From contig RPFO01000076.1 of the NCBI GenBank assembly GCA_009746045.1, positions 3,234,420 to 3,298,419 of the forward strand: a DNA stretch of 64,000 bases. The letters are read 5' to 3'. The stretch comes from Mesostigma viride (taxonomy: Eukaryota; Streptophyta; Mesostigmatophyceae; Mesostigmatales; Mesostigmataceae). Shown here in pieces: positions 7,869 through 55,562 of this stretch. The translations under genes and the position numbers were made by a program. Every line of letters begins with the position of its first letter. The first letter of the stretch is position 1. The notes under the pieces were generated by a model that saw nothing but the letters and a program-made list of their open reading frames with translations, searched no databases and was not told where the DNA came from.

Positions 7869-8993
7869 TGGTGGAGATGGTGCAGACGTTGCACCGGGTG
7901 TGCATGCAGCAAGCAAGTATGTATCTCCCCACTTGGTTGCGTGTACAGACAGGTAGCCAGCAGGGGGGGGACGTGCAGCAGACAAGCTCATCTAGCAGTG
8001 AGGATAGTGATGTTTCTCTCACCCCTACCTTTGAGCAATGGGAGGCAGCTAGGGCACGCAAGAGGCAGGCACAGAGTCAGGGTGTGCAGGGGGGCATGGA
8101 CATGTCATCTTCACCAGCACATGTTGTGCAGGCACCTAACCCCCCAGTGCAGCCAGCCACGCGTAGCAGGCCCTCACAGGTCTCACCTAGCATCCCAACA
8201 CTGCCAATGCTGCTACATCCCCAGGCAGGTCTTCTTCTCCCTCTCCCTCTTCACCCTCTCAGGATTGGCCAGTCTATAACGAGCATAGGCCAATTGACAG
8301 GATTATGGTGAGGGGGCTGCCAGAGGGGTATACTAGGCAGCAGGGTGCTCAGCTTCTTCTCTCTCTCAAGCTGCTAGGGAGGAGCTGAATATCAAGAACT
8401 GGTTTGGGGCACTCATGCAGGGTGATTTCTTCCACCAATCCAATCCCTCCATCCAGCACTTGGTATCCATATATCAGCAAAGGTATCCCAGGTGGCAGGA
8501 CACACAGGGTAGGGAGCCATGGGAGAATTTTCTGCGTGATCTGCATGACCTGCTGTCTGCTCCCACCACTGTTGACATGTACTCTGCGTTTAACTGGGTG
8601 AAAACCTATAAGGTAGAAACTCAGAACTATGTAGCAGAGATCAAGAAGTGGGAACTTGCAGTGAAAGCCCACCCCGAGGTTAGCAAGCTAGATCACAAGT
8701 GGCTTGTACATTCCCTGCTCGAGAAGCTTAACCTTGATCGTAACACCTTTGCCATGATCACCACAGGCTTGGCCACCCATTGGGAGTCGATGAAAGAGGC
8801 TCTCGATTATGTTAAGCTAGCCCTGGGTCCACTGTGTCAGGACTCAGCCCCTCCCCCCTCTACCTCTTCCCCCCCTGCTGTCAAGCGGGCTCGGGGGGAG
8901 GAGTCAGATGAGGAGGGTAAGGCCAGGAAGGCCAAGGACAAGCGTCCTGTGACGCTAGGGGAGGTGAAGACTCTTATGAGTCAGTTTGCCTGA
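7868..8993 (+). pseudogene. Element I gag-like polyprotein (frameshifted)
   Basis: Reading starts at ATG 7868, which overlaps the previous TGA, and runs to 8311. It then changes frame, and from about 8350 gives a helical gag-like segment (WENFLRDLHDLL, KTYKVETQNYVAEIKKWELAV, DHKWLVHSLLEKL) ending at TGA 8991-8993. That segment has the general form of Copia gag cores. The zinc knuckle is not before the stop but lies in the following frame at 9152-9193, after a Lys-Gly repeat. A -1 shift or an indel would join them. Confidence 0.55.
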
Positions 8994-9065
8994 AGGGCAA
9001 GGGCAAGGGCAAGGGCAAGGGCAAGGGCAAGGGCAAGGGCAAGGGCAAGGGCAAGGGGCAGGGGA
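8993..9065 (+). repeat. (GGGCAA)n hexamer encoding Lys-Gly repeats
   Basis: About ten tandem GGGCAA units directly follow the gag stop. In the pol frame they encode alternating Lys and Gly, then KGKGRSSPAGG, leading into the zinc knuckle. The basic stretch could bind nucleic acid. Microsatellite slippage here could also explain the frame change between gag and pol. Confidence 0.8.
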
Positions 9066-12000
9066 AGGGGAAGGGTAGGTCATCCCCCGCAGGGGGGAAC
9101 GCTAACAAGTCTTCTGGGGCTGGGTCCTCCACCCCCAAGAAGGATGTGAAATGTGTGCGTTGTGGGCGTCGTGGACACAGCAAGGACAAGTGCCACAAAC
9201 ACAAGGAGCACCTGCCGCACCTGGAGGTGCTCTGCCACAAGTGCCTGGGACCGCCTCACGGGGACCCCGCCAAGTGCACCAAGGAGCCGTGGCAGCCCCC
9301 TAAATGTAAGTCCTCACACCCTCACACGTGTCATGATGAGTCGTGTCCCCTACACCACCCAATATCCAGCTCCACTGCCCGGGCAGGGACACAGGATGGG
9401 AGGATGTTGACAGGATGTCAAGTTAACTCTGTTACCTCTCACTCTCCACCTTCATGCTCAGCTGTCAAGGCTGTAAGCAAGGTTGGCAAAGTGTTGAAGT
9501 ATTACACAGAAACCTCTGACAGTGAACCCAGGTTCACCTCCTTGATACCCAAGGTGTCCAGGGTCATGACCCAAGCTCTTAGTAACATCAGTTATGAGGA
9601 GCTGGCATTGCAACTGCACTTACTGTATGGTCATGAGACATGTGCAGAGGTGGTAGCAGCTGCATTGGGAGGTACGGCACTCAGGAAGGCATGTCAGCTG
9701 ATCAGAAAACACTGTCAGCACTGCCAAATGTATGCACCTAAACCACCCAAGTGGCATGTAGCTACACCACCTAAGTGCAAGGGCAGAGTGGTCGGGGATG
9801 TGTTCCATATTAAGGGACAGCCCTATCTGGCTTTAAAGGACGCATGGTCCAGGTACACAGCAATAGAACCTCTCCCTGGTATGGACAAGTCTCAGTTGCA
9901 CAGAGCTATATTAATAGCACAAGCCAGGTACTACCCAGTAGAAGCACTGCTGTTAGATCAGCAATTTAGTTGCCTTGCTGGGGCAGAGGGCTGTGAAGCT
10001 ATAGACCTGGCTGGGCTAGAAGATCATGAGAGACAAGGTATCATTGAGAGGGCAATTAGGTCTATCAAAACCTTGGTAGCCAAAGAAGGTGAGAACCTGT
10101 TAGCTGACAGTGGGTCATACGCTGATAGGGCACTGTGGGCTACTAAGATATGCCAGATACTCAATAGACGACCACTCCTGCAGACACCCTATGGTATTAT
10201 CACACCAGATGGGTTACAGGCTGGGATATACCCACCTGAGGTACTAGCTGTGTACAATGCACAGCGTGCCCACGCTGCCAGCAGATTGGCAGCCAAGGAT
10301 GCCAAGCATCCACGCCCCTCCTTCAAGGAAGGGGACACAGTTCTCTTCTATAAGGAGTCAGGGCTAGGGAAGGTTGGGACATGGTTAGGCCCAGCCACTA
10401 TCCTTAAGTTTTCCAGCACAGGCAAGACTGTGCATGTGAAACACAATGACACTGGGCATGTGCACAAGTGCTCACCTCACAGGATTAAATTGTATTACAC
10501 TCCACTGTCAGACGTGGCAGAGGAGGAAGAGCTGATGGTCGACAGCTCAGTACAGTTGCCTGGTATATCTGGAGTACCCAGTGAGTGGTTGTTTGGAACA
10601 CACACTGGTGAGTGTGATAGCCACAACACATGTGCACCCCAGGTCACCCTCAGTGAGCCTAGCCAGCCACAGCAGGTTAGACCACCTGTCAATGAGGGCA
10701 CTAACCAAGAAGGTGGTCAGCAAGACAGCACACCTTCAGCGGTACCAGCTCAACCCATACCTACCGTGTCCAAACATGGGCTAGCAGAAGCGGTCCGCAT
10801 ACTGCAAGCAGCGCATAGAGCCAAAGCTCACACTGCTGCAGGGTCAGCCAAAGTGAGTAGGGCAGGTCACAGCGACAACAATCCAGCTCTAGTCGCGGTT
10901 GACACCCAAGCTCAGGTTAGCATCATCAGTGCATTGGCTGTACCACACCTAGAGTTAGAGCCTTCCCCTTGGCAACGGGTGGCTGATTTCTCTGGGCAGG
11001 CTAGCTTGACTGTTAAAGGTCAGGTTACCTTAAACATTCTTGGTATCCCCACACCTTTTCAGGTACTGGAAGGATACACAGGAAATGCTTTGTTGGGTGA
11101 TCCATTTATTTCTTACCCAGGTGTCACCATCTCTTGTGATAGGCTTGAGGTACAGGGCCTGGGTGGGGTGTCACTTGATCATTTTCAGGTACCACTCCAG
11201 ACTTTGGTTGACACACAGCCAGCCACTGTCAAATTTGTTGCACCAAAGTATGCACCTGGGCACGAGCCACGTGTGGCAGATTTGGTGCACAGTCAGAAAC
11301 TGCACCCCAAAGCATTTGGATTGGGAAAGTATGATGTTGCAAAAATGTCTCCCCTCTCCTATGAGCAGATTGTCCAGGACTGTCAAACTCAGGAAGGTTT
11401 CACTAAGTGGGTTGAAGCTTTTAGAAAGGCTATGGATGAATGGGTGGTTCCAGATCCACGTAGTCCCACCCACACACCTCCAGTCACTCCCTTAGAGCGT
11501 AAGCCCAACGGGAGCAAGCACCTAAGACTTAAGTTCGTGTGCAAGCACAAGCAAGCAGCAGATGGCTCTGTCATAAGTGTCATTTTCCATGCTAGGCCTT
11601 GTGTGACTGAGTTTAAGGGATCCACTGATTTGACAGAGGCAGACCTGTATACACCTGGCATTCAGCAAACTTCTCTTAAAGTTTTGCTGTCTGTTTTTTT
11701 AGGGCACATCAATCAAGGTGATGATTATGTGTGTAAAGCCACTGACATTAAACGTGCTTTTCTGAAAGGTTCACCTGAAATAGCTGAGCAAGTTTGGCAT
11801 GGTAGAAGGTGTACGTGGTCAACACACCTCAGGTGTGGTCTATAAGGATATCCCACAACCCTTTCTGAAAGCAAACATAGGAGTGGAAGGTCTGCAATCT
11901 GCTCCTAGAATTTTCAGAATGTCAGCTCAAGCTGTGTTTGAGAAGCTAGGTGCTCGTTATGATGACATAGACCCTTGCGTCTTTGTTGTCCCTCACCCTC

Positions 12001-14980: not shown

Positions 14981-14985
14981 CCCCC

Positions 14986-15639
14986 AGTTAGCATATTGGG
15001 GCACCAATGTGCTAGATGGATGCAGGTTGAGGAGACCTTTCCAACGCCGTGTCAACCGCCTAGAACAGACAAGGGACTAGAAAGTTATCAAGTCCCGAAG
15101 TACTGCCGACCGGTGGGCGAGGGCGGGGCACACTCAGGGCATAGTGGACAGGACACGTGGCAGGCCGTGCCTGCACAGGCTTAGCCTGGACTCTCACGTG
15201 ACTGGGACACAGTGTACTGAGGGCTCAACGGTACTGTGGCTAGTAGAAGCCAGTAACCAGCCAGCAGGTCTGCAAGGATGTAAGTCCTTGCAGGACTGTG
15301 GCAGGTCCTGTGCTGTCCTAGACACAGGATAGCCAGAGATTCCTGTATGCTGCCTGCAACGAGGATGCAAGGCAGCGATACGAGGCTCTGGCAATGTAGC
15401 GTTGCCCAGCGTTGCTCATGACCGAGGAACAAGGATGGAACGAGGTTGCATATAGCTCGAGGCTCAACGAGGCAACGAGCGTCTTCACACACGAACCTTG
15501 GTCGTCACGACGAGTGGCGAGCCTATCGAGGGTCGTAGGCCTGGTGTGAGGATAAAGGTTGCTAGCCAGCAGCCTAGGGTCATTCCAGCCGGCAAGGACC
15601 AGGAGCTCACAAGCTCTGCTGACGAGTTGCTGCGCAAAT
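14986..15639 (+). repeat. Element II 5' LTR
   Basis: It starts AGTTAGCATATTGG and ends GCGCAAAT, so it lacks the usual TG...CA ends. It matches 22723-23376 except for T/C in GCGT(T/C)GCTC and G/A in CACAC(G/A)AACC. The internal sequence begins CGTACTATTG, which does not look like a primer site complementary to a tRNA 3' end (expected TGG...). The start of the element III internal region, CGTATTAC, is similar. Confidence 0.92.
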
Positions 15640-15662
15640 CGTACTATTGCTTCCACGCTTTC

Positions 15663-16794
15663 ATGTCTGGTTCATCGTCAAGCAGCCACGGTGCTGGTGA
15701 GGCGAACGAGCAGAGAGACGCGCAAGCGTTTTTCCCCTACCGTAACCAAGCAAACGCTCCAACATTCGTGCAAGCGGCCTACGTAGCGAGGCACTTGGCA
15801 GAAGAGGGGTGGGTGGCGGTGAGTGGGGGAGGCAACAGGCCAGCGGCGGCGGACCCGATTATACAACGGGCTCGCGTCGTGATTTCTCCAGGTGAGACGG
15901 GGCGAGTGGCGGTGGAAGAGTTGGTGCGCTACGGACGCGCTAGCTGAAACTGCTAATCGTGTGGAGGTCGCTTATCAGGGCGCCCATATCACGCTTGCCG
16001 GTCTCGACCTAGCCAGGGAGGCGCTTAGCCAGATTGTGGCAACAGCGCTCGGCAGCACCAGACTGTTCAACCACTGGGTGGCGACAGCAGTGCTAGGAGA
16101 GGGGGTACCAGACGCCGACATCATCCGGAACGCGCGTGCTCGGGAGACGGTAAATCCTTGGAGCACGGCGGAGGTATTTGCCCAAACCATTGAGAATCTT
16201 GTTGCTGTCCTTTTGCAAGAGTCGAGAGGGTACGCAGACAGGTTCTATATTACCACGCAGCCTTTCGGGGTACTCAAGGCTTGATACACCGAGGCCGGAA
16301 ACCACCACTGCGTGGGGTCCGGAGGTGGAGATTGTCGCAGGGGTCGAGAAGACGCCTGAAGACGTCCATTTTGAGTGGACTGACAAGCCAGAGGGCTCCG
16401 TCAAGCGCTCAGCCCAGCAGATAAACGAGGGCGACGGCACTACCGAGACCTACGAGGCAAGGCAGAGAGCTGATCTGCATATCCCTCGTGAGGCGACTCA
16501 CGAGTACGACCGTTACGGCCGAGGCGAGCAGAACGAGCTTGTCGGCGGCGGTAAGCGGTGGTTGCGCATCTTGCTTGGCATCGCAACCCAGGCGAGACAC
16601 AACATCCAGTCGAACGCAAGGAAGACGGGCGACCTGTGACCTGCGTGCTGGGAGAGTTTAACCCAGACCTCCAGATTGTCGCAGAGGCAGCAGCAGCCAC
16701 ATCGGTTGCTGAGGGTGTTGAGCAGCGTCCAGACCGTGAGGAGGGGCAGGCGAGTGCAAGCCAGGAGGCGGCCTCGTCTGGAGTAAGTGCGTGA
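15663..16794 (+). pseudogene. Element II extra ORF upstream of gag (ORF-A), frameshifted
   Basis: ATG at 15663 follows the LTR by 23 nt. The reading covers about 375 residues in four pieces: 15663-15947, about 15930-16284, about 16270-16639 and about 16600-16794. Visible stretches include RNQANAPTFVQAAYVARHL, VAYQGAHITLAGLDLAREAL and STAEVFAQTIENLVAVLL. The composition is soluble and helical, with no recognised domain. It ends near a GTAAGT that could be a splice donor. Its position equals ORF-A in elements I and III, but the sequence does not obviously match them. Confidence 0.5.
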
Positions 16795-16848
16795 GCCTGA
16801 GTGGGTTCCAGCGGCCATATCTGCGTGTGTTTTCTGTGGTATTCTATA

Positions 16849-18193
16849 ATGCTTCGTAACACGCGCGGGGCGGCAGCGGGAGCGGGGCGGGAGCGGGGGA
16901 TGGCGGGGGTGAGGCAAGGGCAGACACGGGAGCCCCGCCAACGTCGTGCCAGAGGGACAGGCAATCCCAACGGCAGAGGGCGTCAATGGCAGGAGGGCGT
17001 CCAACCGGAAGAGGAAAGAGGTGGCACAAGGGGAGGAGCGTGCAGGGTGGCCAACCGACGGCGTGGTGCTGACGGGGGAGGGCCAGAATGATGCTGAACG
17101 GCAAGCACCTGGTAAGAGACCATGTGTGCCTCCGTCTGGTGTTCCTGCAGCTATGTTCCTGCGCCATTAGCACCAGTAGGAGCTGCTGTCATTGGCAGTG
17201 ACCCTCGTGCTTTGCCTGGGACTAGACCTCATATGAGTGCTGTGGCTGTGATGAATGGCCAGAAGCCTCTCAAGCCTCCTGTGGGACAGGAAGAGCTAGA
17301 CAAGTGGTTGGAGGATATGGAGCTAGTTTCATGCTCTGTAGATCCCACTGTCAACCTTGTGCAGGTATTCCACACATCCACGACTAATAGGGATTCAAGT
17401 GAGGGTGAGGGACAAGGCTAGGCAGGCTGTCAAGGACAAGCTGACTTGGTCTCAGTTCCTAGAGGGCCTACGTCAGGAGTTTTCTGATAAGGTACTCAAC
17501 CTCACTAATCACTATAAGCTCAGCTATGATACCTTTGAGATCAAGGGCACAATAGCTGAGGAGCTGCAGCGGCTCACACGCATCAGGGAGAAGGGGGCCA
17601 AGCATGGCTTCAATCTGACTGATAGAGCAGTGGCAGATTACTTCCTGGATCGCATGGGGCTGAGTGTGGATGGGAGAAATGCAGCTAGGATGTTTGCTGA
17701 TCAGACAGATGGGACGTGGCCAGCCTTGCAAAAGGTTATTTTCAATATCCGTCCATCTGACAATGCTGCTTGCAAGGCAATCCAGGTGACTGGTGCCCCT
17801 TCAGCCTCCGCTCATCAGGTCCATGGTGACGCCCCTGGGCAGGGTGCTCAGGGAGAAACCAGACCTAGTAGGCGTCAGAGGGCTAACAGGCGCAGGCAGA
17901 ATGGTAACCAGGGTGGCAAGGGCCAGCAGCAGGGATCCAAAGGCAAGGGTCAGCAGCAGGCTGGTGGTCACCAGGGTGGTCAGCAGAACAAGGGTGGCCA
18001 AGGGCAAGGCAAGAGCCAGGGCCAGGGCACCCAGGCCAGTCAGAGCAGCCAGAACCAGGGTGGCCTGAAGAAGGCTGCTGCTGGGAAGGATGACAAGTGC
18101 TTTGGATGTGGCAGGACGGGTCATTGGCGACGTGACTGCCCAGACCAGGCCAAGTCTGCTGGAGCAGGCTCTGGCCAGGTGGGTAAGCCATGA
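16849..18193 (+). pseudogene. Element II gag with zinc knuckle
   Basis: The N-terminal part (from ATG 16849) is Arg/Gly-rich and changes frame two or three times up to about 17400. From there to 18193 it is open: WSQFLEGLRQEF, a helical core, a long Gln/Gly/Lys-rich linker, then CFGCGRTGHWRRDC, a CX2CX4HX4C nucleocapsid knuckle. The reading ends at TGA 18191-18193, in the same frame as pol. Gag forms the virus-like particle and binds element RNA. Confidence 0.75.
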
Positions 18194-18196
18194 CTT
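18191..18196 (+). promoter_or_regulatory. Candidate UGA readthrough site between gag and pol (element II)
   Basis: TGA CTT interrupts a single open frame running from gag into pol. UGA followed by C, especially CU, is a leaky context in known viral and cellular readthrough. Element III has TGA CTG at the equivalent place (50371). Suppression of this stop would make Gag-Pol. Confidence 0.5.
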
Positions 18197-21100
18197 GAGA
18201 TGTTGTCCCCTGTAAATAGTCAATCACCCCTAGTGGGACGAACAGTTGTACATAGTAATGGGGGTGTCCCTCTTGTGCAGCAGCAAGGGGTTGGGAATGA
18301 TGAGGTGCTTCCACTCAATGATTGCAATAACGCTGCTGCAGCAGTGGAATTCCCTGTGCCTGTGGCAGGTGCAGGGTCTCCAGTTGTTGGGGTTGACTCT
18401 GGGAGTCAAGCCGCCAGACTGGAAGGACCTGCAGCTTCTGTGGGAACCGGGGCTGGCTCTGGGAGCCGAGCTACCTTGGAGGAGGTCCCTGGAGCAAGAG
18501 AACAGCAGGTGGGTCGTGCTATCCCAAGCACACAGTCTTTGTCACGTTCCTCTCTGTGCAGCCAGGCTGACAGGGGGTTGAGCTATGCTCAGGCTGGAAA
18601 CACTCTACACCATATCTTTGGTCACTCTAAGCAGGCAGAGATGTTTGCTTGGAAGATTGGCAAGGAGCCTTTGCTAGAGGCCTGCAGTGCAGCTGCTCAG
18701 AATTGTGTCTGTCAGGAGAATGCTGTTCGCCTCCCACAGTCCCATGCCAGAGAACCTGCTAGAGAGCGGGGGGATATCCAGGTGGACATCCAACACATCA
18801 GGGGCATGTATCTGTTGGTGGGGGTGGATAGGTTTAGCAGATATAGGTTGCTGACCATTCTTCCTGGAATGCAGGAGCATCAGCTGTTGATGGGTCTCCA
18901 GTCTTTGTTGCCAGGCTTTGGGGTGTACACCAAGGTGCAAGCTGACTTGCAGTTTGACTGCTTGATCAAGCTGGCTGACCAGCTTCCTTGTAAGTTGGTA
19001 GTGGTCCCTAGGGAATGCCATGGGCAGCAGGGAGCTGTAGAGAGATCTATACGTGAAGTAAAAACAGTGGTGCTAGCAGCTAGGAGTGTGCCTGTTGTGG
19101 CATCAGCTCTAGAGAAAGCAGCTTGGTGTAAGGGGATTGAGGAGCAGCTTAACCACAGGGTAACCTATTACTATGATGGTGTGGCAGTCTCTCCCCTGGC
19201 ATTGCAGTTTGGTATGCTATCACAGGACGTGGTGGCAGCCTGCCTGAAGAAGGCAGACAGGGTGTTTTCCAGATTGAGGCGTAAGGACAAGGGTTGGAAA
19301 ATGCTGAGGCCCCAGGTGGGACTGAGGGTCAGGATGTGGAAGGAACCGTCATTACCAGGCAAGCGTGGCAAGTGGCAAGATGGGCAGGTAACCCATGTTG
19401 AGGAAGCTAACCATTCTTGTCTGGTGGCTTTGGAGAGTAATCCCAAGCACGTGTACAGGCTATCCTGGGCTCACGTCAAGGAGAGAAGGCCAACTGCAAT
19501 CTGGCCTGAAGACGGCCCTGATCCTCCCTTGGAGGGAGATGAGCAGGATGAGAGCCAGGCAGCAGATGCTAACCCACCATGCTTGGATTATGGTCTGTCC
19601 TGGATGGATGAGGGTGAGCAGGAGTCTGCTGAGACGTCTGTCACAAGGCCAGAGGTGGCCAGGGCTGCACCACAGTCCAGGGGGCTGCTTATGGCGGACA
19701 TCATTCGAGCTCTGCAGAACAGCAAGCGTGATCCCAAGGTATCTAAGCTCACGGGATGGGGGTCATGTGGGGCACCAGCACTAGAAGTGGATACCAACTC
19801 ACAGGTGTCCATTCTAAGGGTAGAGGATGCTGCAGGCTTGCAGTGGTCATCCCCTAGCTGCCTAGCTGTGTCTGATTTCTCTGGGAATGTGTCCATGAAG
19901 ATCTTGGGAGAAGTGAGTGTGCCTATCCTGGGGGTGCCCACCACGTTCAGTGTGGTTGAAGGGTATCAGGGGCCTGCCATTCTAGGTCAGAACTTCTTGT
20001 GCTTACCAGGGGTGAGGATATCCTCTGAGGAGCTAGCATTAGAAGGGCAGGGCCGCCTTCCCTTGCAGAGATATCGCTACTCCCAGGGTCTTAGTGTGGC
20101 TGTAAGGGCTGTGAGGGGTCTAGAGGCAGAGGGTCCTGATACAAAGGAGCCCATTGCTGGGGACCTGCTGATCCTCCCTACTACGTTTGACCCACGTGAG
20201 TTGGGTGTGCAGAGGTACCAGATCCCAGGAACGAGTCCTGTACCTTGGCGCAAGCTAGTGGAGATGATGCAAAGCCCCAAGATGGCTAAGGCATGGACTC
20301 TTGGCTTTGTTGCTTCTGGGCATGAGTGGATAGTTGCCAACTGTGCAGAGCCTGTGGATGTCCTCCCTGAGGATCACCAGCTGCTCAGATTGATGTTTGT
20401 CCTCAAGCTCAAGGAGGTAGATGGCGTGCAGGTGCCACATGTTAGACCAGTTGTGACTGAGTACCATGGCACTGGACAGTTAGCAGATGAGGAGCTTTAC
20501 ACACCAGGGATGCTGCATGATACATGGAGGATTTTGTTGTGCATTTATTTGTCTTTTCTGCAGAAGGGGATACCCTATAGCTCTGTGTTGGTAGATTTCA
20601 AGAGGGCTTTTCTTAAGGGTGATCAGCAGGAAGCACAGGATACTTGGCGCACAATACCCCCTTTCTTTGTTAAGGTGCCTGCAGTGTGGAGGGCAGAGCT
20701 GAAGACGAGGTATTTGAGGATTCTCAAAGGCGTGGAAGGCCTTAGATCGAGTCCCATCATCTGGAGGAAGAGCTTGGAGAAGTACCTCAGGTCTGTCTGT
20801 GGTCTCTCAGTCTCTCCAGTTGATCCTTGTCTGTTTCAGGGTAGCTATGAGGGGCTGCCAGCGTTTGCCTCCCTGCATGGTGATGATCTGCATCTCCTGG
20901 GCCATCCCACTTGGCAAGAGTTGACTCTGGCCAGGATCCAGAAACGGTTTGAACTGGGTAAGATCCAGTACATGGTTGAGAATGAGCCCATGGTGTTTTG
21001 TGGAATGCAGGCGACCTTGGTCCATCAGCAGGGTACATGGTCCATCCAGCTGGAGGGTGGTAAGGATTATCCTCAGCAGATCATAGATGCCTTGCAGGAG

Positions 21101-21787
21101 CCCATCACCCAGGCCAGATGTGCAACAATACGAGGTATGTTGGCATGGCTGGCCAGCATTTGTGCTCCTGACCTGTTGGTACTGAGTCGGTTGACCGATT
21201 CCCAACTGGTTGAGGTGGGTGCTGAGAGAGTGGTAGAGGCTGTTCGCATGTCTCCCCCTCTCATGCTGGGTCCTTTGGATTTGTACAGGCCTTTTGACAT
21301 GATGCTCTATGTGGACAGTTCTATGGATAGTAGGAAGGTCACAGAGGTCAGGGGCCGTGCAGCAGCATTAATATCCCTGGTGCAGGAACAGTCCTCTCTG
21401 GTCTGCTGGTACAGTCGGTTGCAGAACAGGGTAACTCCCAGCAGTGACATTGCTGAGTGCAGGGCAATCTGTGAAGGGCTTCATACTGCTCTTTACTTGA
21501 GGGAGCTATTTTACCAGCTATGTCAAGTGGCTTCCTGTCGGTTGCAGATGCACACACTGGTAAGAACTGACAGCATGGGCATGGTGCAGTTTGTGCACAG
21601 GCAGCTGGCCAGGAGCAGGGACCTTGATTATTTGTTGCTCAAGGAAATGTCTTGCTTAGCTAACATTGAACATGTGGCTGGCGTGGACAACCCTGCAGAT
21701 GCTCTCACCAAGCTGGAGGAGAAGGCTGAGCTGCAATACCCTTTGCTTCGTGGGCTCATGGCCTCCAAGGGGGGAGGGCCAGAGTAG
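18194..21787 (+). CDS. Element II pol polyprotein: INT, retropepsin-like, RT, RNase H
   Basis: The frame is open for 1195 codons from 18200. Residues counted from 18200: integrase zinc site H137, H142, C169, C171 (CXC, not CX2C); catalytic D196, D249 and E281 (GAVERSIREVK); Copia-type integrase tail (QLNHRVTYYYDGVAVSPLA). Retropepsin-like domain at about 525-610 with DTN at 531-533 and AILGQNFL at 593-600. RT with VLVDFKRAFLKG (D799) and LHGDD (HGDD 893-896). RNase H D1039, E1086, D1124, D1163. The domain order INT-PR-RT-RH differs from PR-INT-RT-RH of Ty1/copia. A DSGS at 66-69 could be a relic of an ordinary protease, but no full domain surrounds it. Expression probably needs readthrough of the UGA at 18191. 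Confidence 0.9.
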   Translation, partial: LEMLSPVNSQSPLVGRTVVHSNGGVPLVQQQGVGNDEVLPLNDCNNAAAAVEFPVPVAGAGSPVVGVDSGSQAARLEGPAASVGTGAGSGSRATLEEVPGAREQQVGRAIPSTQSLSRSSLCSQADRGLSYAQAGNTLHHIFGHSKQAEMFAWKIGKEPLLEACSAAAQNCVCQENAVRLPQSHAREPARERGDIQVDIQHIRGMYLLVGVDRFSRYRLLTILPGMQEHQLLMGLQSLLPGFGVYTKVQADLQFDCLIKLADQLPCKLVVVPRECHGQQGAVERSIREVKTVVLAARSVPVVASALEKAAWCKGIEEQLNHRVTYYYDGVAVSPLALQFGMLSQDVVAACLKKADRVFSRLRRKDKGWKMLRPQVGLRVRMWKEPSLPGKRGKWQDGQVTHVEEANHSCLVALESNPKHVYRLSWAHVKERRPTAIWPEDGPDPPLEGDEQDESQAADANPPCLDYGLSWMDEGEQESAETSVTRPEVARAAPQSRGLLMADIIRALQNSKRDPKVSKLTGWGSCGAPALEVDTNSQVSILRVEDAAGLQWSSPSCLAVSDFSGNVSMKILGEVSVPILGVPTTFSVVEGYQGPAILGQNFLCLPGVRISSEELALEGQGRLPLQRYRYSQGLSVAVRAVRGLEAEGPDTKEPIAGDLLILPTTFDPRELGVQRYQIPGTSPVPWRKLVEMMQSPKMAKAWTLGFVASGHEWIVANCAEPVDVLPEDHQLLRLMFVLKLKEVDGVQVPHVRPVVTEYHGTGQLADEELYTPGMLHDTWRILLCIYLSFLQKGIPYSSVLVDFKRAFLKGDQQEAQDTWRTIPPFFVKVPAVWRAELKTRYLRILKGVEGLRSSPIIWRKSLEKYLRSVCGLSVSPVDPCLFQGSYEGLPAFASLHGDDLHLLGHPTWQELTLARIQKRFELGKIQYMVENEPMVFCGMQATLVHQQGTWSIQLEGGKDYPQQIIDALQEPITQARCATIRGMLAWLASICAPDLLVLSRLTDSQLVEVGAERVVEAVRMSPPLMLGPLDLYRPFDMMLYVDSSMDSRKVTEVRGRAAALISLVQEQSSLVCWYSRLQNRVTPSSDIAECRAICEGLHTALYLRELFYQLCQVASCRLQMHTLVRTDSMGMVQFVHRQLARSRDLDYLLLKEMSCLANIEHVAGVDNPADALTKLEEKAELQYPLLRGLMASKGGGPE

Positions 21788-22722
21788 ACCAAACAGCCTT
21801 GCTCTAGGTGGGAGGCATCCCAGTGGGCTGGGCAGCCACGTGGTGGCTGACAGCAGGTCCTTCAGAGTTCAGACACACTCTGCTGGACAGGGGTCAGGGT
21901 GGAGTCACTCCCCTGGCTGAGAATTTCGCCTGGCTCTGTCATGGAGCTGCAGAAGAGTCTTAAGGACTTTGTAATGGGCCTTGGGTCTTCATGGAATGGA
22001 CCCTGCAAGGGCAGCCCAAGTGTTGGCTCTAACAGGTTGCTGTACATTTGTATATATTCTCTGTAACCAACCTGTTGCATGCTAATAAAATCCCTGGTTG
22101 TGTGACCATGTTGGACGTGGTTGCCAGGGGCCTCACTATGGGTTATACTCCTTTATAATAAAACATAATCTTGTTATTGTCATGTCTTGTTGTTTGTGAT
22201 GCTCAGTTCCAGGAGCTGATCCAAACCTGGAGGATATGGGGTGGGGTTCGATTCCCCAGCTGACCTCAGCCTGGCATGTATGAATCCTGAGTGAGACTCA
22301 GTGAGGACATGGGCTCCCCATGTGTTGGCTAACATTTGTCAGGGCTCTCTCAGTCTTTGGAAGGATTTAAAAGATAAAGGAGGCTCCGTGGCGGGCGCCA
22401 TATGAACGGGCGCCTGTGATAACTGGATGACCAGGAACTCACAATAGTACGTTCATGGACTCCTCTATCCAAACTCCTCTGACTAAGTGAAGACCTAACT
22501 TTAATCTACACCAGGTTCCCAAAGAAAGGGTTGGGATGTCATGTGGGTCAGAGGGCAACCTTTGAACCAATGAGCAGGCCTAGCTAATATTTGGAGGCAC
22601 CTCAGGTTCCAAAAGAAAAGGCAGGTCTGGTCTCTGGGAGGGATCAGATGTCTGAAGGCTTGTGGGGACAGTGGCTGATAGGTTCTCAGGCTGGTCCAAG
22701 CTCCAAAACAAGAAAGGGTTGG
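21788..22722 (+). promoter_or_regulatory. Element II 3' noncoding module and polypurine tract
   Basis: It contains a T-arm-like hairpin GGGGTTCGATTCCCC (22243-22257) and two CGGGCGCC boxes (22392-22399 and 22407-22414). The same pieces occur in element III with nearly equal spacing. AATAAAA strings occur at about 22083 and 22158. AAGAAAGGGTTGG directly before the 3' LTR (22710-22722) is the likely polypurine primer. Confidence 0.6.
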
Positions 22723-23376
22723 AGTTAGCATATTGGGGCACCAATGTGCTAGATGGATGCAGGTTGAGGAGACCTTTCCAACGCCGTGTCAACCGCCTAG
22801 AACAGACAAGGGACTAGAAAGTTATCAAGTCCCGAAGTACTGCCGACCGGTGGGCGAGGGCGGGGCACACTCAGGGCATAGTGGACAGGACACGTGGCAG
22901 GCCGTGCCTGCACAGGCTTAGCCTGGACTCTCACGTGACTGGGACACAGTGTACTGAGGGCTCAACGGTACTGTGGCTAGTAGAAGCCAGTAACCAGCCA
23001 GCAGGTCTGCAAGGATGTAAGTCCTTGCAGGACTGTGGCAGGTCCTGTGCTGTCCTAGACACAGGATAGCCAGAGATTCCTGTATGCTGCCTGCAACGAG
23101 GATGCAAGGCAGCGATACGAGGCTCTGGCAATGTAGCGTTGCCCAGCGTCGCTCATGACCGAGGAACAAGGATGGAACGAGGTTGCATATAGCTCGAGGC
23201 TCAACGAGGCAACGAGCGTCTTCACACACAAACCTTGGTCGTCACGACGAGTGGCGAGCCTATCGAGGGTCGTAGGCCTGGTGTGAGGATAAAGGTTGCT
23301 AGCCAGCAGCCTAGGGTCATTCCAGCCGGCAAGGACCAGGAGCTCACAAGCTCTGCTGACGAGTTGCTGCGCAAAT
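22723..23376 (+). repeat. Element II 3' LTR
   Basis: Partner of 14986-15639, same length with two substitutions. It is followed directly by the CCCCC target duplication (23377-23381). Confidence 0.92.
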
Positions 23377-23381
23377 CCCCC

Positions 23382-24200
23382 AACGTGCACAGCCCTTCAC
23401 CCGTGATAGGTGAGACGGTCCCAACCATAAACCCATCCACGCATCCATATCTGTGCGCGCACCCGTCCATCTACCCGTCCTTTCGCCCACCCACCCACAT
23501 AGTCATCTACACATCCACCAGCCACCAACCACCAATGGCCTACCCACCAACCCACCCACCCACACGCATCCCTAACCAACCAACCACCAACCCACCACCA
23601 TCAATACCGTGCCATTGTTTCACTCACGAATCCAACAACCCACCCACTTCGCAGTCCCCAAAGCCTATCAATCACCCAGCCACCTGGACATCTACCTATG
23701 ACCGACCACCCTTGTACTCATCCACCCACCATGACCAGCCAGCCAGCCACCCACCCTTACCAGCTGCCTGTGCTCCCAGCTACTCGGCCATGCAGCCATT
23801 TACCACGGCATCCACCTTTCAGCCAGCCACCTGCCATTGAACCCACCTACGCCTAGGCATCCCTGGAAGCATCTATAGCCTAAGCCTCCCACACAAGACT
23901 TCCTGGGCAACCAACCAACCAACCAACCAACCAACCAACCAACCAACCAACCAACCAACCAACCAACCAACCAACCAACCAACCAACCAACCAACCAACC
24001 AACCAACCAACCAACCAGTCACCCAGCAACACAACCACCTAACCACTCGACAACCCAATTACCGAACCACCTAACTACCCAACACCCAAACCAGCCAGGC
24101 ATGAGCCGGCCCATTTGCCCTCGCATGCCCGCACCATCGCAACCCCCCCTAAACGCCCCGCTCACCTAGCCAGCCACACGCCCAGCCAGCCACCTGCTCA
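23382..24200. repeat. C-rich low-complexity region with (CCAA)n microsatellite
   Basis: The sequence is dominated by CCACCCA/CCAACCA words. From about 23908 to 24016 it becomes a nearly perfect CAAC tetranucleotide of about 27 units. The long translations on both strands here are repeat artefacts (for example WLVG repeats on the minus strand) and are not genes. Confidence 0.85.
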
Positions 24201-25859: not shown

Positions 25860-27555
25860 AGCTAGGCTGTTGAACGTGCCAGTCCCTTTGGCTCAGCCTT
25901 TATGTCTCTTCATGATCTCATGCTGGCTTGAGTGTGCCTGCTTCACCTCTTTCATCTGCATGCCCCACTGTCAGAGCAGCGAGCAGTTCTGGAAAGGTGT
26001 TATACAGTTGGTTTCAGAAGACTATGTCTCTAAACCCACATTCACTTCTATGGTTCCCACAAGGTATGTAGAGGAGTGTCCCCCTCAGAGGATGCTCATA
26101 TCAGTATTCAGGAGCTTGCTTTACAGTTGCACTTCCTTTATGGGCATGAGGTGAGTGCAGAGGTGGTGGCAGCAGCAATGGGGGGGGGCAGCACTCAGAC
26201 GTGCTTGCCAGGTGGTCAGATCCCACTGCCAGCATTGTCAGTTCAATGCACCTAAACCCCCTAAGTGGCATGTAGCTACCCCACCTAAGTGCAAGGGCAG
26301 GGTGGTAGGAGATGTCTTTCACATAAAAGGACAATCTTACTTGGCACTTAAAGATGCATGGTCAAGGTACACAACCATTGAACCATTACCTTGGACAAGA
26401 CACAGTTGCTCAGGGCTCTCTTGATTGCTCAGGCCAGGTACTACCCTGTGGAGGCATTGCTATTGGATCAACAGTTCACATGTCTTGGCAATGAACCAGG
26501 GTGTGAGGCTATTGACCTGGCAGGGCTAGAAGATCATGAGAGGCAAGGCATCATTGAAAGGGCTATCAGGTCCATTAAACCCTTGTAGCCAAGGAAGATG
26601 GTAATCTGCTGGCTGACAGTGGGTCCTATGCTGACAGAGCCCTGTGGTCCACCAGGTTGTGCCAAGTCCTCAACAGGAGGCCACTCATGAAAACCCTACA
26701 AGGGGTGGTCATTACACCAGATGGATTGCATGCAGGCATATATCCACCTGAGGTATTAGCCCTATACAACGCACAGCGAGCACATACAGCTAGCAGGTTA
26801 GCTGTCAAGGATGTAAAGCACCCACGTCCCACCTTCAGAGAAGGGGATCAGGTCCTCTTCTACAAGGAGTCGGGATTAGGCAAGGTGGGTACCTGGCATG
26901 GGCCAGCCACCATCCTAACGTTTAACACCACTGGCAGGACAGTGCAGGTTAAACATAATGACACGGGTAAGGTTCACAGGTGTTCACCTCACAGGATGAA
27001 ATTGTATTTTCCAACTGTGTCAGACGTGGCAGAGGAGGAAGAGCTGTTGGCCGACAGCCCTGTACAATTGCCTGGCATCCCAGCGTTGCCCAGTGAGTGG
27101 TTGTTTGGAACACCCACTGGTGAGTGTGAGAGCCACAACCACTGTGACACCCAGGTCACCCTTGATGATTGCAGGCAGTCACTGCAGGCTTGGCCCCCTG
27201 CAGCAGAGGGTCACATTGGCAAAACAGGTGATCAGCAACCTATCACCTCTTCACTTGTGGAAATAGCTCAGCCACTAGCTGCACGTTCCAAACGCAGCCT
27301 AGCAGAAGCTGTCCGCATTTTACAATCAGCACATAGAGCTAAAGCTCAAACTGCTGCAGGATCAGCTAAGGTGGGTAAGGTTGGGCAGAATGACAATAGC
27401 CCATTCTTGGTTGCAGTGGACACACAAGCCCAGGTCAGCATTATTAGTGCACTGGCTGTGCCCCATTTGCCTTTGGAACCTTCACCCTGGCACCATGTGG
27501 CTGATTTCTCAGGGCAGTCATCACTCAAGGTACAAGGTCAGGTAATGTTGACTAT
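25860..27555 (+). pseudogene. Copia-like fragment IV: integrase and retropepsin-like domain
   Basis: It aligns by eye with element I pol: ELALQLHFLYGHE, HCQHCQFNAPKPPKWHVA, DVFHIKGQSYLALKDAWSRY, EALLLDQQF and GIIERAIRSIK. The last piece, 26657 to about 27555, runs through the integrase tail into VAVDTQAQVSII (DTQ codons start at 27419) and stops where non-LTR elements entered a TA-rich run. At least three frameshifts are present. It independently confirms that the protease-like block follows integrase. The left end is uncertain. Confidence 0.8.
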
Positions 27556-29654: not shown

Positions 29655-29663
29655 GAATATATA

Positions 29664-30763
29664 TTAAAAATATAATTACTTACAGCAGAGTGAAATCACT
29701 CAAACCAAAGCAAACGCCCAGCTATAAACCTATATACAGAGCCATGTCAAAGCTCTATACTACGATAAGACCAATGGAAACGCCTAACGGGAGGAACCTA
29801 ATAGCCCTGCTGCACCGCAAAATCAGCCCGCGTACGGCGGAGCATGATGTCCGCCATGGCCCGAGTCAGCGCCACCGACAAGCGCTGACGCCAATATGAC
29901 GTCCAGGTCCGCGCCGACCATGGGGCCCGCTGGCCCTCCAGGTCCAGCCGGTCCTCCCGGAGCCGGCAACACTCCTTGAAGAAGGCGGAGGTCAGGGGCC
30001 CCATGGCCCCAAACTCCTCCAGGACAAAGGGCACCACACGATGGTGCCCGACGTCGCCGTAGGCCAGGAGCTTGGCCCGCTCCGCCCGGTCCGCCGTGTA
30101 ACCTGCCGTGAGGGAGGCCCCAGCCACGTGGCTAAGAGCCAAGGGCCGCGCCACCGAAACGTCAATAAGCAGATGCCGGCCACCCCCCTCAAAGTCCAGC
30201 ACCACGATGTCAGGCCGGTGGTTGGGGGAATAGAAGGCAGCGCCATCCGCATCCTCGGACCGGATGTTCGCGTGGGGGAAAACCGACCGAATCATGGCGA
30301 GCACCACCGTCAGGAGGACAGTGTGCAAATACAAATACCAATTCTGATTCTGTTGGCCCCCCATGCAGGCAAGGTAGTGAGTCCCCGTGGGATCCAGCGG
30401 CTGCCCACAGCTACCACAAGGCCGCCCGGCCGGAACAAGAGGCTGCGGGGCAAATAGCTGGTGCCGGAGCGCCACCGAGTAGTGGCTGGGAGCCAAGGCG
30501 AATGGGGGGGCCATGGGAAGAGCACGAAGGTACGCCGAGCCCACACTCCGCAAGGAAAGCGAGAACAGCCACGCACGTCCCTGGGCGTTGAGGTCCGCGA
30601 AAAGAGCAATCCAATCAGCCGTGTGCAGAATACCCGCGTAGGTTTTCTGGTGTTTATCGATGACGCGAGCAGGGAATGCGGCGGGAGATTGAACGGAGGC
30701 GACCGAGGGAGTGCCGCGAGGGAGGTGGCGCTGTACCGCCTGAGCGGCACGGACGGGAGAACA
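29664..30763 (-). mobile_element. RLE non-LTR copy a (5' truncated, minus)
   Basis: The coding part (30553-29798 minus) has the CCHC finger (CGSCGQPLDPTGTHYLAC), RPDIVVLDFEGGGRHLLIDV and the terminal ADFAVQQGY. The 3' end reads TATATTTTTAA. GAATATATA flanks it on both sides (29655-29663 and 30764-30772) as a short target duplication. A C7 run keeps MAPPFALA in frame here, while copy e has C6 and is shifted. Similarity to copy e continues upstream to 30763. Confidence 0.85.
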
Positions 30764-30780
30764 GAATATATATATTTACT

Positions 30781-31407: not shown

Positions 31408-31469
31408 ATATATATTTACTATACTCTATCTATATTTATATGTATTTATATGGTACATGATTGTATATA

Positions 31470-31706: not shown

Positions 31707-31729
31707 CATGATTGTATATATATTGAGCG

Positions 31730-32157: not shown

Positions 32158-32277
32158 TATATATTGAGCGTGTTTGTAGGTGGGGGCTTTGTCATTTAGC
32201 ATGCCATAGTTAACCAATAATCACCTTGCTTACTCGCCTCTTATTGCAACTGTTTGTTCTATGCTTGTTGCTTGCAG

Positions 32278-42889: not shown

Positions 42890-42906
42890 TATATATATTT
42901 TCTGAT

Positions 42907-47737: not shown

Positions 47738-48353
47738 AGTTAACGTAAAGGATTTACGTTAGATGGATAGAGATTGTTACGCTCTTTCCAACGGCACCTT
47801 GAACGCCTCATTTGGTTAAGGAACGTAAAAGTTATGACGTTTCCTAGGCTGTGCCGACAGTACCCGGCGCGCCACTGTGGGCGCGTACGGACACAGGATG
47901 TACAAGTGTCACTTTGATAGTCCGCAGGACGTTGACAGGACTTGTACAGGACTTGATGGTCAATTGATAGGTAGGCGCACTGTAGCGCGCCAGGACCTAT
48001 GGGACAATTGATGCTGACTAGTGTACGGATAGGTCCACAGGACTAGCCGTATGGACAATTGATAGATCTGCGCGCCAAAGGCGTGCCAGAGTCTGTGTAA
48101 TCAATTGATTGACAGTTCAGCTGTGACAGTGCAGCTGAATACTTGGACGCGTCCCTAGCAAGCTATATGAGTGACTTGGTCACACCGGGACGCTAGTTCT
48201 TGCGTGCACGTTCTCTTGGCACTGCGACCCTGTCGTCTGTGCTGCGTGCAGTCTTGGAAGTGACGTGACTTACGTCTGTGTTTCCTGTTATTAATAAAGG
48301 CAACTTCCTGCAAGAACCATGGCGGAATTCGTGGCATTCTTACCCTCACAACT
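47738..48353 (+). repeat. Element III 5' LTR
   Basis: Starts AGTTAACG and ends CTCACAACT, so the ends AGTT/AACT are inverted repeats of each other. It contains four CAATTGAT motifs, CTATATGAG as a possible TATA box near 48163, and TTATTAATAAAGG as a possible poly(A) signal near 48290. The internal region starts CGTATTACACGC. Confidence 0.92.
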
Positions 48354-49258: not shown

Positions 49259-50373
49259 ATGGCTGAGGGACGCCGTAGCAAGGGTCCAGCCAGTGGGAAT
49301 AATAATGGGGGTGCTGGTAGTGGAACCGCTCACGTAGATGACGTGGGGCTTACCGGAGAGATTACCAACCTTCCTCACAATAATAATAATGCACAAGCTA
49401 TTCATGGCTTTGATCTTACCACACAGGGTCTTTTAATTGTCAATCAGTTGCAGCCTGTAACCTCAGACTCCAAGCCTAAGCAGGCTGAAGAGTTTGTGGA
49501 GGGATTGGAAGGGTTCCCTAGCTTGTACGGTGGTACAAATTACTATCAAATCTGGATAGGCAGTAGCACTTTTGGCAAGTGTACTGACCAGATTAAGGAC
49601 CTAACCAGGGAGTGCAAAAAGGCCAATAAGGCCTGGGCACTGTACGTGGCTGAGCTGAAGGAGCTGCTGGAGGACCAACGAAGAAGGTCGGCATCCATTG
49701 GCAGGACAAGTATCAAGGGTGGGAGGTCAAGGGGGACCTGATCCAGAACTTTCTCAACTATTGTAAGATGGTTGAGGAGGGCAGGGCTCACGGCTTTAAT
49801 GTCGCTGATAACATAGCCCTAACCAACTGGCTCAAGGTTTCTGGGCTGGATAAGGCGACACGTGGCTCCTTAAAAGTCATGTGTGCCCCACACTCTACCC
49901 TGAAGGCCTACAAGGTCATCATTAAACAAGCACTCGAGGCAGAGGAGCTGTTTGAGGGTGGAGTGCCAGCAGTGAAGGCTACCCAGGCAGGCGGGCGTAC
50001 CCAGGGTGGCTCCAAGACGTCTGAGGCTGACCGAAGCCAAGGAGGGCGTAGGGGCAACCATCACAAGCGCAAGGGAGATCATTCACCTGATTCTGACAGG
50101 AGGTCACACTCCAAGTCGGTGTTCAGGCGGGTGGGTGGTCAGCCCAAGCAGGGCAACGCGTCTGACAATGGGGGCAGTGGCCAGGGCAAGTCCAAGATAC
50201 AATGCTACCTGTGCAAGGGGTGGGGGCACATCAAGAAGGAGTGTCCCAGCTTCAAGAAGTCCCAGGGCCAGGGCAGCAACAAGAATAACAACAACAACAA
50301 GAAGAACAACAACAAGTCCCAGGCAGGCCAGCCTTCAAAGGGCAGTCAGCAAGAAGACAACAAGGAGCAGTGA
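49259..50373 (+). pseudogene. Element III gag with zinc knuckle (one frameshift)
   Basis: ATG 49259 (MAEGRRSKG) is open to 49741. A frame change near 49,680 links ELLEDQ to KKVGIHWQDKYQGWEVKGDL and continues to TGA 50371-50373. The C terminus has CYLCKGWGHIKKEC (CX2CX4HX4C) and an Asn/Lys-rich tail. The part near AHGFNVADN aligns with element II gag (KHGFNLTDR). A single indel is the only break. Confidence 0.75.
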
Positions 50374-50376: not shown

Positions 50377-53300
50377 TCTGAGGCAACCCCTACACACCTT
50401 AATTCACCCAAGGGGGAGGCCAGGTGCTCCAATGCAGATTTTATATCTGGGCAACAAGAGGGTGATCTCCAGGTTCAGTGTGGCCCCAGGTCACCTGGAG
50501 AGGTACAGGTTCCTATGAAGACGTCCTTGACAGCTGATGCAGCTGTAAGTATGTCTGACCCTATGCATCCTCGTGCTGGGCACGAGGGTGGACCTCTCAT
50601 TTTGAGAGAAACCAATGTACAACCACAGAGGGGTGTGAAGGCCTCTGGTGGTATGCATGTGGTCCCTGCTGGCGGTCCAGGTGTTGGGCATGAGCAGGGT
50701 GACTCAGGCTCTGAGTCAGAACAGGATGGAAGTCAGCATGGTGATGCTGGACAACCTGACAGCACAGTCCTGACTGTGCCAGGGACTGCTTCCTCTGTGT
50801 ACCAGGAGTTGGGTGCCCGAATCCACAACATGTTTGGGCATGCCACTTCTCTGTCAAACAACTTTGCCTTCCGTATGGGCAGGGCACCCCTTCTTAAGGC
50901 GTGTCAGCAAGCTGCCTCACGGTGTAAGTGCCAGTTGTCCTCCAACAAGCCCAGGAAATCACATGCCAAAGCTCTACCTCAGAGCATTGGTGATCTGCAG
51001 TGTGATATCCAACACATCAGGGGCATGCAACTGTTGGTGTGCGTGGACAGGTACACGAAATACAAGGTGCTGGAGCATTTACCTTCTATGAAGAACAGGT
51101 ACTTGCTGGCTGCCCTGCAGAATGTAAGAGCCAAGTTTCCTACCACAAGGATCCAGGTGGACATGCAGTTTCAGCATCTCAAGGGTGATCCTACCCTTCC
51201 TGAGTTGCTGGTTACACCTAGGGAGGCTCATGGGCAGCAGGGTGCTATCGAGAGGGCAATCCAGGAGGTCAAGAAATTGATCATCTCTGAAGACTGGGTA
51301 CCCTTGTCTGCACCTGCACTTGTCAGGAGTGCATGGCTGAGGAACGTGGAGCAGCAGCTGAACAGCAGGGTTAACTTCTACTATGATGGAGTTGCTGTCA
51401 GCCCAATGGGTCTATATCATGGCCTGTGCCCACCACATGTGCTGGAGGGCTGGAAACATGCTGCACATGTCACCTTTGCCAAGCTGAGGGAGAAGGACCG
51501 GGGTTGGAAGATGCTGGAGCCACAAGTGGGTCAGAAGGTCCTAGCTTGGAAGGAACCTAGCCTTTATGGCAAACGTGGTAGCTGGAGTCCTGGGGTGGTT
51601 ACCCAGGTTGATGAAGCTAGCCACGCATGCTTGGTCAGCATGGAGGACGAACCAAAGCATGTACACCGGCTGAGTTGGTCATATGTCAAGCCTAACCTGA
51701 TGAATGAGGGCAGTCAGGCACAAGGCTCACAGGATCTGCAGGATTTTCAGGTCCCAGGTGACATCACTGACGCAACGACCACATCTGTTGCAGGGGAATC
51801 TGTCAGCCCTGGCCAGGTTGCAGAGGTACTTGTTGAACAGGCTGCAAGGTCAACAGCTGGGGAGTCAACTGTCAAGCCCAAGGCACTAACCAAGCCCAGG
51901 GGGACAAGTTTGGCTGGATTGATTGGGGCTCTACAAAGGGCCAAGAAGCAGCCCAAGGTAGCCAAGCTCAGGTGGCATGGCAATCTGGGGCTGGACACTG
52001 CCTTAGAGGTAGACACTAATTCTCAGGTTCCATCATTGGGACCAGGGCTGCAGCAGGGTACAGCATGTCTGAACCCAGCTATCAGTTTGTGTCTGACTTC
52101 AGTGGCGGGGTACACGTGAAGGTACTGGGTGAGGTATTCATTCCTATCCTTGGACAGGACACTGCTTTTTGTGTCTTGGAGGGCTATCAAGGACCTGCTC
52201 TTCTGGGGCAGAATTTCCTATGCCAGGATGGGTAGTGATCACGTCCTCTCTCCTGACTAAGGAAGGGGCTGGTCAGGTCCCACTGATTAATTTCAGGACC
52301 ACTCACCTATCACGTGCAGTAACCAGGACGGTTAAGCGTGTGCAAGTGTGCCAGGGGCAGGAGCCCTTGGTTGATGACCTCATACTGCCAGCTGCTAGTC
52401 ATCCAAGCAGTTTGGGCATTGGTCCTCACTCACTTGCTGGACACAGCCCTATCAACTACCAAGGCCTGGTGAAGCTCATGTCCTCTCCCATTATGTGTCC
52501 CCAGGTCACACTGGGTCTGATTAAATCTGGGGAGGACTGGATCTCCAAGAAATGCGTGGAACCTGTCAATGACCTGCCTCCTGCACGACGTCTACTCAAG
52601 CTCAAGTTTGTCATCAAGATGAAGGAGGTGGACGGGGTCAAGGTACCACATGTCAGGCCAGTGCTGAATGAGTTCAAGGGTACTGGTGAGTGCACTGCTG
52701 AGGAGTTGTATACCCCTGGCATGCTGCATGATACTTGGAGGCTGCTGCTGTGTGTCTTTCTAGGCCTTCTCAACAAGGGCTTGGACTATGGCTCAGTGGT
52801 GATAGACTTCAAGAGGGCATTTCTGGAGGGTGATGCAGATGTGGCACAGGAAAAGTGGGAGGGCAAGACGCCTTTCTATGTTAGGGTGCCTGCTGTATGG
52901 AAAAGGGACATCCACACGGAGTTCCTTAAAATCCTCAAGGGCCTGGAGGGCCTGAGGTCAAGTCCAATAATCTGGAGGGAGACTCTCAACCGTTTCCTGA
53001 AGGAGCATTGCAACTTGAAGGTCTCTCCTGTAGACCCCTGTCTGTTTCTGGGGCAATGGGAAGGCCTGCCAGTGTATGCTTCGCTGCACGGGGATGACCT
53101 ACATCTGATAGCTCCCACGTCGTGGCTTAAGGAGCTGATCTCCATCATTAAGTCCAAGTTTCCTCTGGGTAGGGAGCAATGGCAGGTGGAGAATGAGCCT
53201 CTGCTGTTTGTGGGCATGGAGGCCACACTGGTGAAGAAGGGGGGAGTGGCGTATGCTGCTGGTGGGGGGCAATGACTATCAAGAGACCCTCATTAGCAAG

Positions 53301-54945: not shown

Positions 54946-55562
54946 AGTTAACGTAAAGGATTTACGTTAGATGGATAGAGATTGTTACGCTCTTTCCAAC
55001 GGCACCTTGAACGCCTCATTTGGTTAAGGAACGTAAAAGTTATGACGTTTCCTAGGCTGTGCCGACAGTACCCGGCGCGCCACTGTGGGCGCGTACGGAC
55101 ACAGGATGTACAAGTGTCACTTTGATAGTCCGCAGGACGTTGACAGGACTTGTACAGGACTTGATGGTCAATTGATAGGTAGGCGCACTGTAGCGCGCCA
55201 GGACCTATGAGACAATTGATGCTGACTAGTGTACGGATAGGTCCACAGGACTAGCCGTATGGACAATTGATAGATCTGCGCGCCAAAGGCGTGCCAGAGT
55301 CTGTGTAATCAATTGATTGACAGTTCAGCTGTGACAGTGCAGCTGAATACTTGGACGCGTCCCTAGCAAGCTATATGAGTGACTTGGTCACACCGGGACG
55401 CTAGTTCTTGCGTGCACGTTCTCTTGGCACTGCGACCCTGTCGTCTGTGCTGCGTGCAGTCTTGGAAGTGACGTGACTTACGTCTGTGTTTCCTTGTTAT
55501 TAATAAAGGCAACTTCCTGCAAGAACCATGGCGGAATTCGTGGCATTCTTACCCTCACAACT
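54946..55562 (+). repeat. Element III 3' LTR
   Basis: Partner of 47738-48353 with one substitution (ATGGGAC/ATGAGAC) and one extra T (TTTCCTTG). Followed by the ATACC target duplication. Confidence 0.92.

Follow-up and report, generated by a model that had tools for sequence, protein, structure and literature searches.

A 64,000-nucleotide stretch of the Mesostigma viride genome (contig RPFO01000076.1; hereafter the window) holds three long terminal repeat (LTR) elements, which we call I, II and III, and a fragment, IV, all of one group, in which a retropepsin-like protease domain (PR) lies between integrase (IN) and reverse transcriptase (RT).

Pol order in the window and across the genome

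Elements I and III and fragment IV are each broken somewhere, and the pol frame of element II is intact (Table 1). Read from its start, this frame consists of a poorly conserved stretch, IN, a second poorly conserved stretch, the PR-like domain of about 110 residues (VDTN...SDFSG...AILGQNFL), RT with DFKRAF at 20594, and RNase H (RH). IN opens with a zinc-binding-like region from 18584 and is recognized mostly by motif and alignment, the Pfam family rve being reached only below its cut-off (E 0.16 in element II, 0.015 in element III); its catalytic Glu, given as E281 in the original prediction, has that number when residues are counted from the first ATG and is residue 283 in the stop-to-stop frame used here. 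A repeat comparison of the window found no LTRs for element I. The ends of the two LTR-bounded elements are not TG...CA, running AG...AT in element II (14986-23376) and AG...CT in element III (47738-55562).

The arrangement recurs well beyond the window. In searches of the genome (G000; 440 Mb, 2243 contigs), for which the places scored were the best-scoring ones and not a random sample, all 40 scored places among 1239 candidates, the window's own included, matched element II at 100% identity along a piece of 1201 bases and lay on many contigs. Every one of the eight family II copies retrieved carries the domain; five are open from the UGA that precedes pol through IN and PR into RT, two of these for the full 1197 codons, and three have an earlier pol stop. 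A second family, 63-64% identical to the database protein P0006, has an open 1196-codon frame at 38 of 38 scored places (10017 candidates), and the 30 copies retrieved from among these show without exception the order zinc region, IN, PR, RT together with a UGA-CUU junction. With the protein P0011 as a starting point (80 places scored of 7640 candidates), we obtained three upstream stretches of a more distant group, L039, L040 and L041, in each of which a single open frame runs through IN and the domain into RT. The order IN-PR-RT claimed in the original prediction is seen in all copies in the window, and the genome scan which that prediction had proposed added four further groups (L009, L039, L040 and L041). 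Counting I and IV together, with II and III as one group each, seven groups of this genome share it, as does P0006, young intact copies included.

Three protein searches, each of which scored only about 7990 candidates, returned one, eight and four proteins, nine distinct ones (P0006 and P0008-P0015), of which four are labelled Mesvir1, two Prorocentrum_lima and one "hypothetical protein", and two are nameless. P0006, from ENA, has the whole order, and P0013 has PR followed by RT. Among the Mesvir1 proteins, P0011 is 99-100% identical to places in the genome, P0015 is 99% identical to element II, and P0008 and P0012 are 85-86% identical to it. Since the best identity of P0006 in the genome is 63-64%, its source is another strain or organism. 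Of the two EukProt entries under the name Prorocentrum lima, P0010 is 100% and P0013 78% identical to the pol of element II, and these labels probably reflect sample contamination or a naming error. Scans of viral_contigs (57 pattern matches) and genome_contigs (101) yielded no confirmed relative, and phage records held none.

Canonical Copia elements coexist with this group: all 150 places scored with Pol_BBD (490 candidates) exceeded the cut-off, all of them outside the window, and two copies, L042 and L043, have the textbook Copia order, with the protease motifs DSA (not DSG) and LLS. The word Copia is absent from the main texts of both M. viride genome papers (one of them PMC6947507).

The domain between integrase and reverse transcriptase

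The Asp of the catalytic triplet lies exactly where the original prediction had placed it in all four copies in the window, within motifs that start at 19781 (II), 10892 (I), 52003 (III) and 27410 (IV). The third residue of the triplet is never Gly in nine of nine sequences, being Asn in five (DTN in II, III, L009, P0006 and L039), Gln in two (DTQ in I and IV) and Asp in two (DTD in L040 and L041); the catalytic DTG or DSG of retropepsins is thus missing. The box near the C-terminus is ILG or LLG in all complete copies (AILGQNFL, IILGQNFL, VILGQNFL, ALLGDPFI, AILGLPFL). A study of clan AA gives DT/SG and ILG as canonical motifs and describes Copia proteases as usually having ILS, not ILG (PMC2642776). 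Because ILG or LLG differs both from that ILS and from the LLS of the local canonical Copia elements, we regard the box as of a non-Copia kind, as the original prediction had held, and the triplet as the group's own.

A seven-row alignment shows no variation at Asp-Thr, V, DFSG, G, V, G and LG..F, and in pairwise comparisons of five divergent pol sequences (II, I, L009, P0006 and L039) the mean identity is 44% in the PR-like domain (34-62%) and 35% in IN, against 23% with 29% gaps in the spacer between them and 19% with 39% gaps in the stretch before IN; the gap share of the domain region (19%) is largely due to an insertion in L039 in front of the domain. The ratio of nonsynonymous to synonymous substitution rates (dN/dS) among L039, L040 and L041 is 0.13-0.21 in the PR region and 0.10 and 0.13 in IN, where the third pair is saturated, as compared with 0.35-0.73 in the two spacers. 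For a 106-codon PR core, one of three pairs yields 0.108, its dS being high (1.56), and the other two are saturated. By these measures, the domain is conserved beyond chance and is under purifying selection.

A low-confidence AlphaFold model of the domain lends modest support to the retropepsin-like fold claimed for it, in that all 50 PDB rows listed are retropepsins, with modest scores; a second structure model was poorer than the first. The domain also reaches the Pfam family gag-asp_proteas, below its cut-off. Like the clan AA retropepsins of Gypsy, Retroviridae and DDI1, it has Asp-Thr at what would be the catalytic place, a flap-like DFSG and an ILG box, and at the model's low confidence it is predicted to have the same fold; it differs from them in having N, Q or D for the Gly of DTG/DSG and in its place in pol. 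When whole pol frames were scanned with Pfam, II, I, III, L009 and L039-L041 had no retropepsin match and P0006 had one that fell short of the threshold (0.086), and PDB sequence searches with element II alone, with a PR profile (A6) and with A7 found no retropepsin. We consider it likely that the domain is a retropepsin-fold protease maintained by selection, and the conserved Asp together with the low dN/dS argue for proteolytic activity.

A complete normal protease before IN in intact members was named in the original prediction as an observation that would speak against it, and no protease was detected in that place. Pfam, at E up to 1, listed no protease family before IN in eight sequences (P0001, P0002, P0003, P0006, L009 and L039-L041), although it is a blunt test, one that in most whole frames overlooks the PR-like domain as well. 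Over the 103-224 residues that precede IN, seven of eight sequences have no D[ST] followed 40-110 residues on by an LG or LS box; L041 has a single such pair, which ends within the first residues of IN, and elements II and III have one lone DSG each before IN. Pol_BBD, which scores 58-62 bits in the canonical Copia copies of the same genome, is not listed for any of seven members at E up to 10, a setting at which HMMER filters drop most weak matches. In these scans the group shows neither the PR upstream of IN nor the protease with an ILS-type box (Pol_BBD) that characterize Copia.

Table 1. Features of elements I, II and III and fragment IV in the window.
Feature	Position	Strand	Basis and remarks
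Element I frame: CCHC, IN, PR-like domain, start of RT; no gag stop	8921..11845	+	frame reading, alignments; frame changes in RT
Retropepsin-like domain, element I; DTQ at 10901, LLGDPFI	10850..11200	+	motif positions, alignment
Target-site duplication, element II; CCCCC (5 bp)	left 14981..14985, right 23377-23381		both LTR edges read directly
5' LTR, element II (AGTTAGC...GCAAAT)	14986..15639	+	99.7% identity to 3' LTR; edges read
C-terminal gag frame, element II; CCHC zinc knuckle	17342..18193	+	zf-CCHC 1.6e-05; ends with UGA 18191-18193, then CUU
Pol frame, element II; IN-PR-RT-RH, 1197 codons	18194..21787	+	uninterrupted; same frame as gag
Integrase, element II; D198, D251, E283 of pol frame; end approximate	18584..19500	+	sub-cut-off rve, alignments, motifs
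Retropepsin-like domain, element II; DTN at 19790, flap-like SDFSG, AILGQNFL	19733..20068	+	AlphaFold model, PDB searches, conservation
RT region, element II; Pfam RVT_2 match	20363..20797	+	E 0.0022, sub-cut-off; profile aligns with the genome's canonical Copia RT
RNase H region, element II (YVDSS...NPADALTKL); limits approximate	21293..21718	+	alignments, motif reading
3' LTR, element II	22723..23376	+	LTR comparison
5' part of retropepsin-like domain, fragment IV; DTQ at 27419; then cut off	27368..27547	+	motif reading, alignment
5' LTR, element III (AGTTAAC...ACAACT)	47738..48353	+	target-site duplication ATACC at 47733-47737
In-frame UGA (then CUG) between gag and pol, element III	50371..50373	+	frame reading
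Retropepsin-like domain, element III; DTN at 52012; frame broken inside domain	51957..52239	+	motif reading, alignment
3' LTR, element III	54946..55562	+	target-site duplication ATACC at 55563-55567

Other features surround these elements. A CAAC tandem array of 27.5 perfect copies (23908-24017) lies just behind element II, several almost identical repeats at 29650-32165 and 41443-44575, 438-1108 bp long and in direct or inverted orientation, are probably nested insertions, and a Ty3/gypsy-type frame at 40407-41459 has a normal protease (IDSGA...IILG) directly before its RT.

Placement and origin of the order

The Copia-like affinity claimed for these elements is borne out by their RT. RVT_2 is matched above its cut-off by P0011 (1.6e-12) and below it by P0014 (3e-07), III (5.4e-07), P0010 (0.00019), P0008 (0.00023), II (0.0022) and P0006 (0.014), with no match for P0009 and the L009 frame; RVT_1, the RT family of Ty3/gypsy elements, is listed for none of the scanned pol sequences at E up to 1. 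Aligned with hhalign to the canonical Copia RT-RH of the same genome, the RT-RH profile matches over 415 columns (E 1.2e-11), and IN matches Copia IN weakly (E 0.24). With the Ty1/copia elements (L042 and L043), the group shares a Copia-type RT-RH, IN before RT, a CCHC gag, LTRs and a 5-bp target-site duplication (CCCCC in II, ATACC in III), while the Ty3/gypsy order PR-RT-RH-IN is absent, IN preceding both PR and RT. It departs from Ty1/copia in three respects: the canonical PR (DSA...LLS) stands before IN, whereas the PR-like domain here (DTN/Q/D...ILG or LLG) stands after it; six groups have an in-frame UGA ahead of pol; and the LTR ends are of the AG...AT or AG...CT form. Because RT is of the Copia type but the position of PR departs from a feature that defines Copia, we call the group Copia-related and do not class it within Copia.

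Gmr1-type Gypsy elements likewise have a pol order that departs from that of their own RT group, there with IN in a Copia-like position within a Gypsy element, here with PR behind IN within a Copia-type one (PMC2774666). In the open-access literature searched, we found no report of a Copia-type element whose PR stands between its IN and RT, and one order search based on abbreviations returned nothing.

On the account that we judge best, the lineage is related to Copia, no longer has the protease it started with, and bears instead a retropepsin of non-Copia kind placed between IN and RT, with UGA readthrough probable. We hold this account with good but qualified confidence, slightly reduced because the catalytic Asp falls in a stretch of the structure model whose predicted local distance difference test score (pLDDT) is below 50, a point that weighs against it. 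In the ancestor of the group, the Copia protease would have been lost and a retropepsin of the ILG kind gained between IN and RT. A fuller version, in which the lineage swapped its protease for an ILG-type retropepsin that is active with DTN, DTQ or DTD, perhaps as a PR-RT fusion from a readthrough Gag-Pol, we put forward tentatively, as somewhat short of an even proposition. The relations among L009, P0006 and II fit a single ancestral event, since they agree throughout: whether identities are taken from IN, PR or RT, L009 and P0006 form a pair to which II is nearest. L039 takes no such consistent place, being in PR roughly as close to II as L009 is, and in IN as distant as I.

The order could also have arisen if the lineage's own Copia protease had moved from before IN to after it, for example by template recombination, and had then diverged. 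The Copia-type RT and the lack of any detected old protease are what such a relocation predicts, and proteases diverge fast, so that an ILG box might have re-arisen. We nonetheless favour capture, for which three things speak, namely the ILG box, the identity of the Pfam family that the domain reaches and the missing Pol_BBD match: every complete copy has ILG or LLG, against the usual ILS of Copia proteases (PMC2642776) and LLS in the local canonical copies, and Pol_BBD remained unlisted, subject to the filtering noted above. The PR profile, moreover, can be aligned in register to the window's Gypsy protease, if weakly (E 0.072), but not to the Copia protease; these hhalign comparisons, made with one or two sequences of each kind, are too weak to decide the origin, and we regard relocation as unlikely while granting it the strongest claim among the competing histories. 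A chimera of another sort, in which an element ordered PR-RT-RH-IN acquired its IN in front or exchanged its RT for a Copia-type one, would account for IN-PR-RT-RH as a cyclic permutation of the Gypsy order and for the placement of PR directly before RT, across a linker of about 50-60 residues. It sits poorly with an RT that matches RVT_2, with RVT_1 unlisted, and with a hhalign probability to Gypsy RT of 0.1 (one 135-residue sequence, a weak test), and we think it improbable.

It is rather doubtful, too, that the domain is an inactive relic or a structural domain of retropepsin fold, with processing left to the protease of the host or of another element. Replacement of the Gly in nine of nine sequences would suit such a role, and canonical Copia and Gypsy proteases that might serve exist in the same genome; yet Asp-Thr, DFSG and LG are invariant across seven rows, dN/dS is near that of IN, and an active site no longer needed would be expected to lose its Asp. 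That assembly or annotation produced the order is next to inconceivable: copies I, III and IV are indeed broken somewhere, but the 40 identical scored places on many contigs, the 38 open places of the second family, and the database records P0006, with the whole order, and P0013, with PR then RT, all stand against it.

Expression and implications of the order

Apart from a UGA, gag and pol form one frame in II (UGA at 18191-18193), III (50371-50373), L009 (L009:1462), L039 (L039:281), L040 (L040:92) and L041 (L041:103), with CUU, CUG, CUU, CUA, CUA and CUA as the respective next codons; element I has no stop between them. Upstream of the zinc knuckle, the gag of families L009 (L009:275-1464) and II (17233-18193) has an apparent frame change, which may be programmed or a sign of decay. 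UGA-CUA is a readthrough context, and the UGA-CUN between gag and pol is likely to be a readthrough signal. The first Met of pol is far from the stop in L009 (residue 50), III (48) and L041 (41), which makes reinitiation right after the stop unlikely in these three; it is at residue 16 in L039, 3 in II and 6 in L040, and reinitiation in II and L040 is possible. RNA folding after the UGA gave nothing beyond shuffled controls. Tca2 of Candida albicans shares the in-frame UGA between gag and pol; that junction alone gave no readthrough in yeast, and Tca2 has a potential pseudoknot after the UGA, where the present elements have UGA-CUN without an outstanding fold (PMC2194720).

On the account of capture set out above, ribosomes would make Gag and, less often, by readthrough of UGA-CUN, Gag-IN-PR-RT-RH; once packed into particles, the fusion proteins would let two PR domains meet and form an active dimer, which may then cut the poorly conserved spacers between gag and IN and between IN and PR. 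PR might remain fused to RT in the manner of foamy viruses, since the linker between them is short and its average conservation exceeds that of the spacer between IN and PR. Foamy viruses are retroviruses with IN at the C-terminus. Their PR-RT (PDB 7o0g and 7o0h, among the matches listed) likewise has PR directly before RT, and by analogy the fusion proposed here would resemble it.

Three features go beyond the original prediction: a triplet without Gly in nine of nine sequences, the coexistence of canonical Copia elements and the in-frame UGA between gag and pol. As pol order is used to delimit the superfamilies of LTR retroelements, a Copia-type RT in the order IN-PR-RT-RH would mean that the protease can move as a module, and that classifiers based on order can miss or misname such elements. 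The lineage is a successful one, with many identical copies in one genome. Its conserved replacement of the active-site Gly offers a way to test directly which residues the active site of a retropepsin requires, and the lineage itself is a natural test of whether the position of the protease relative to IN matters for particle maturation.
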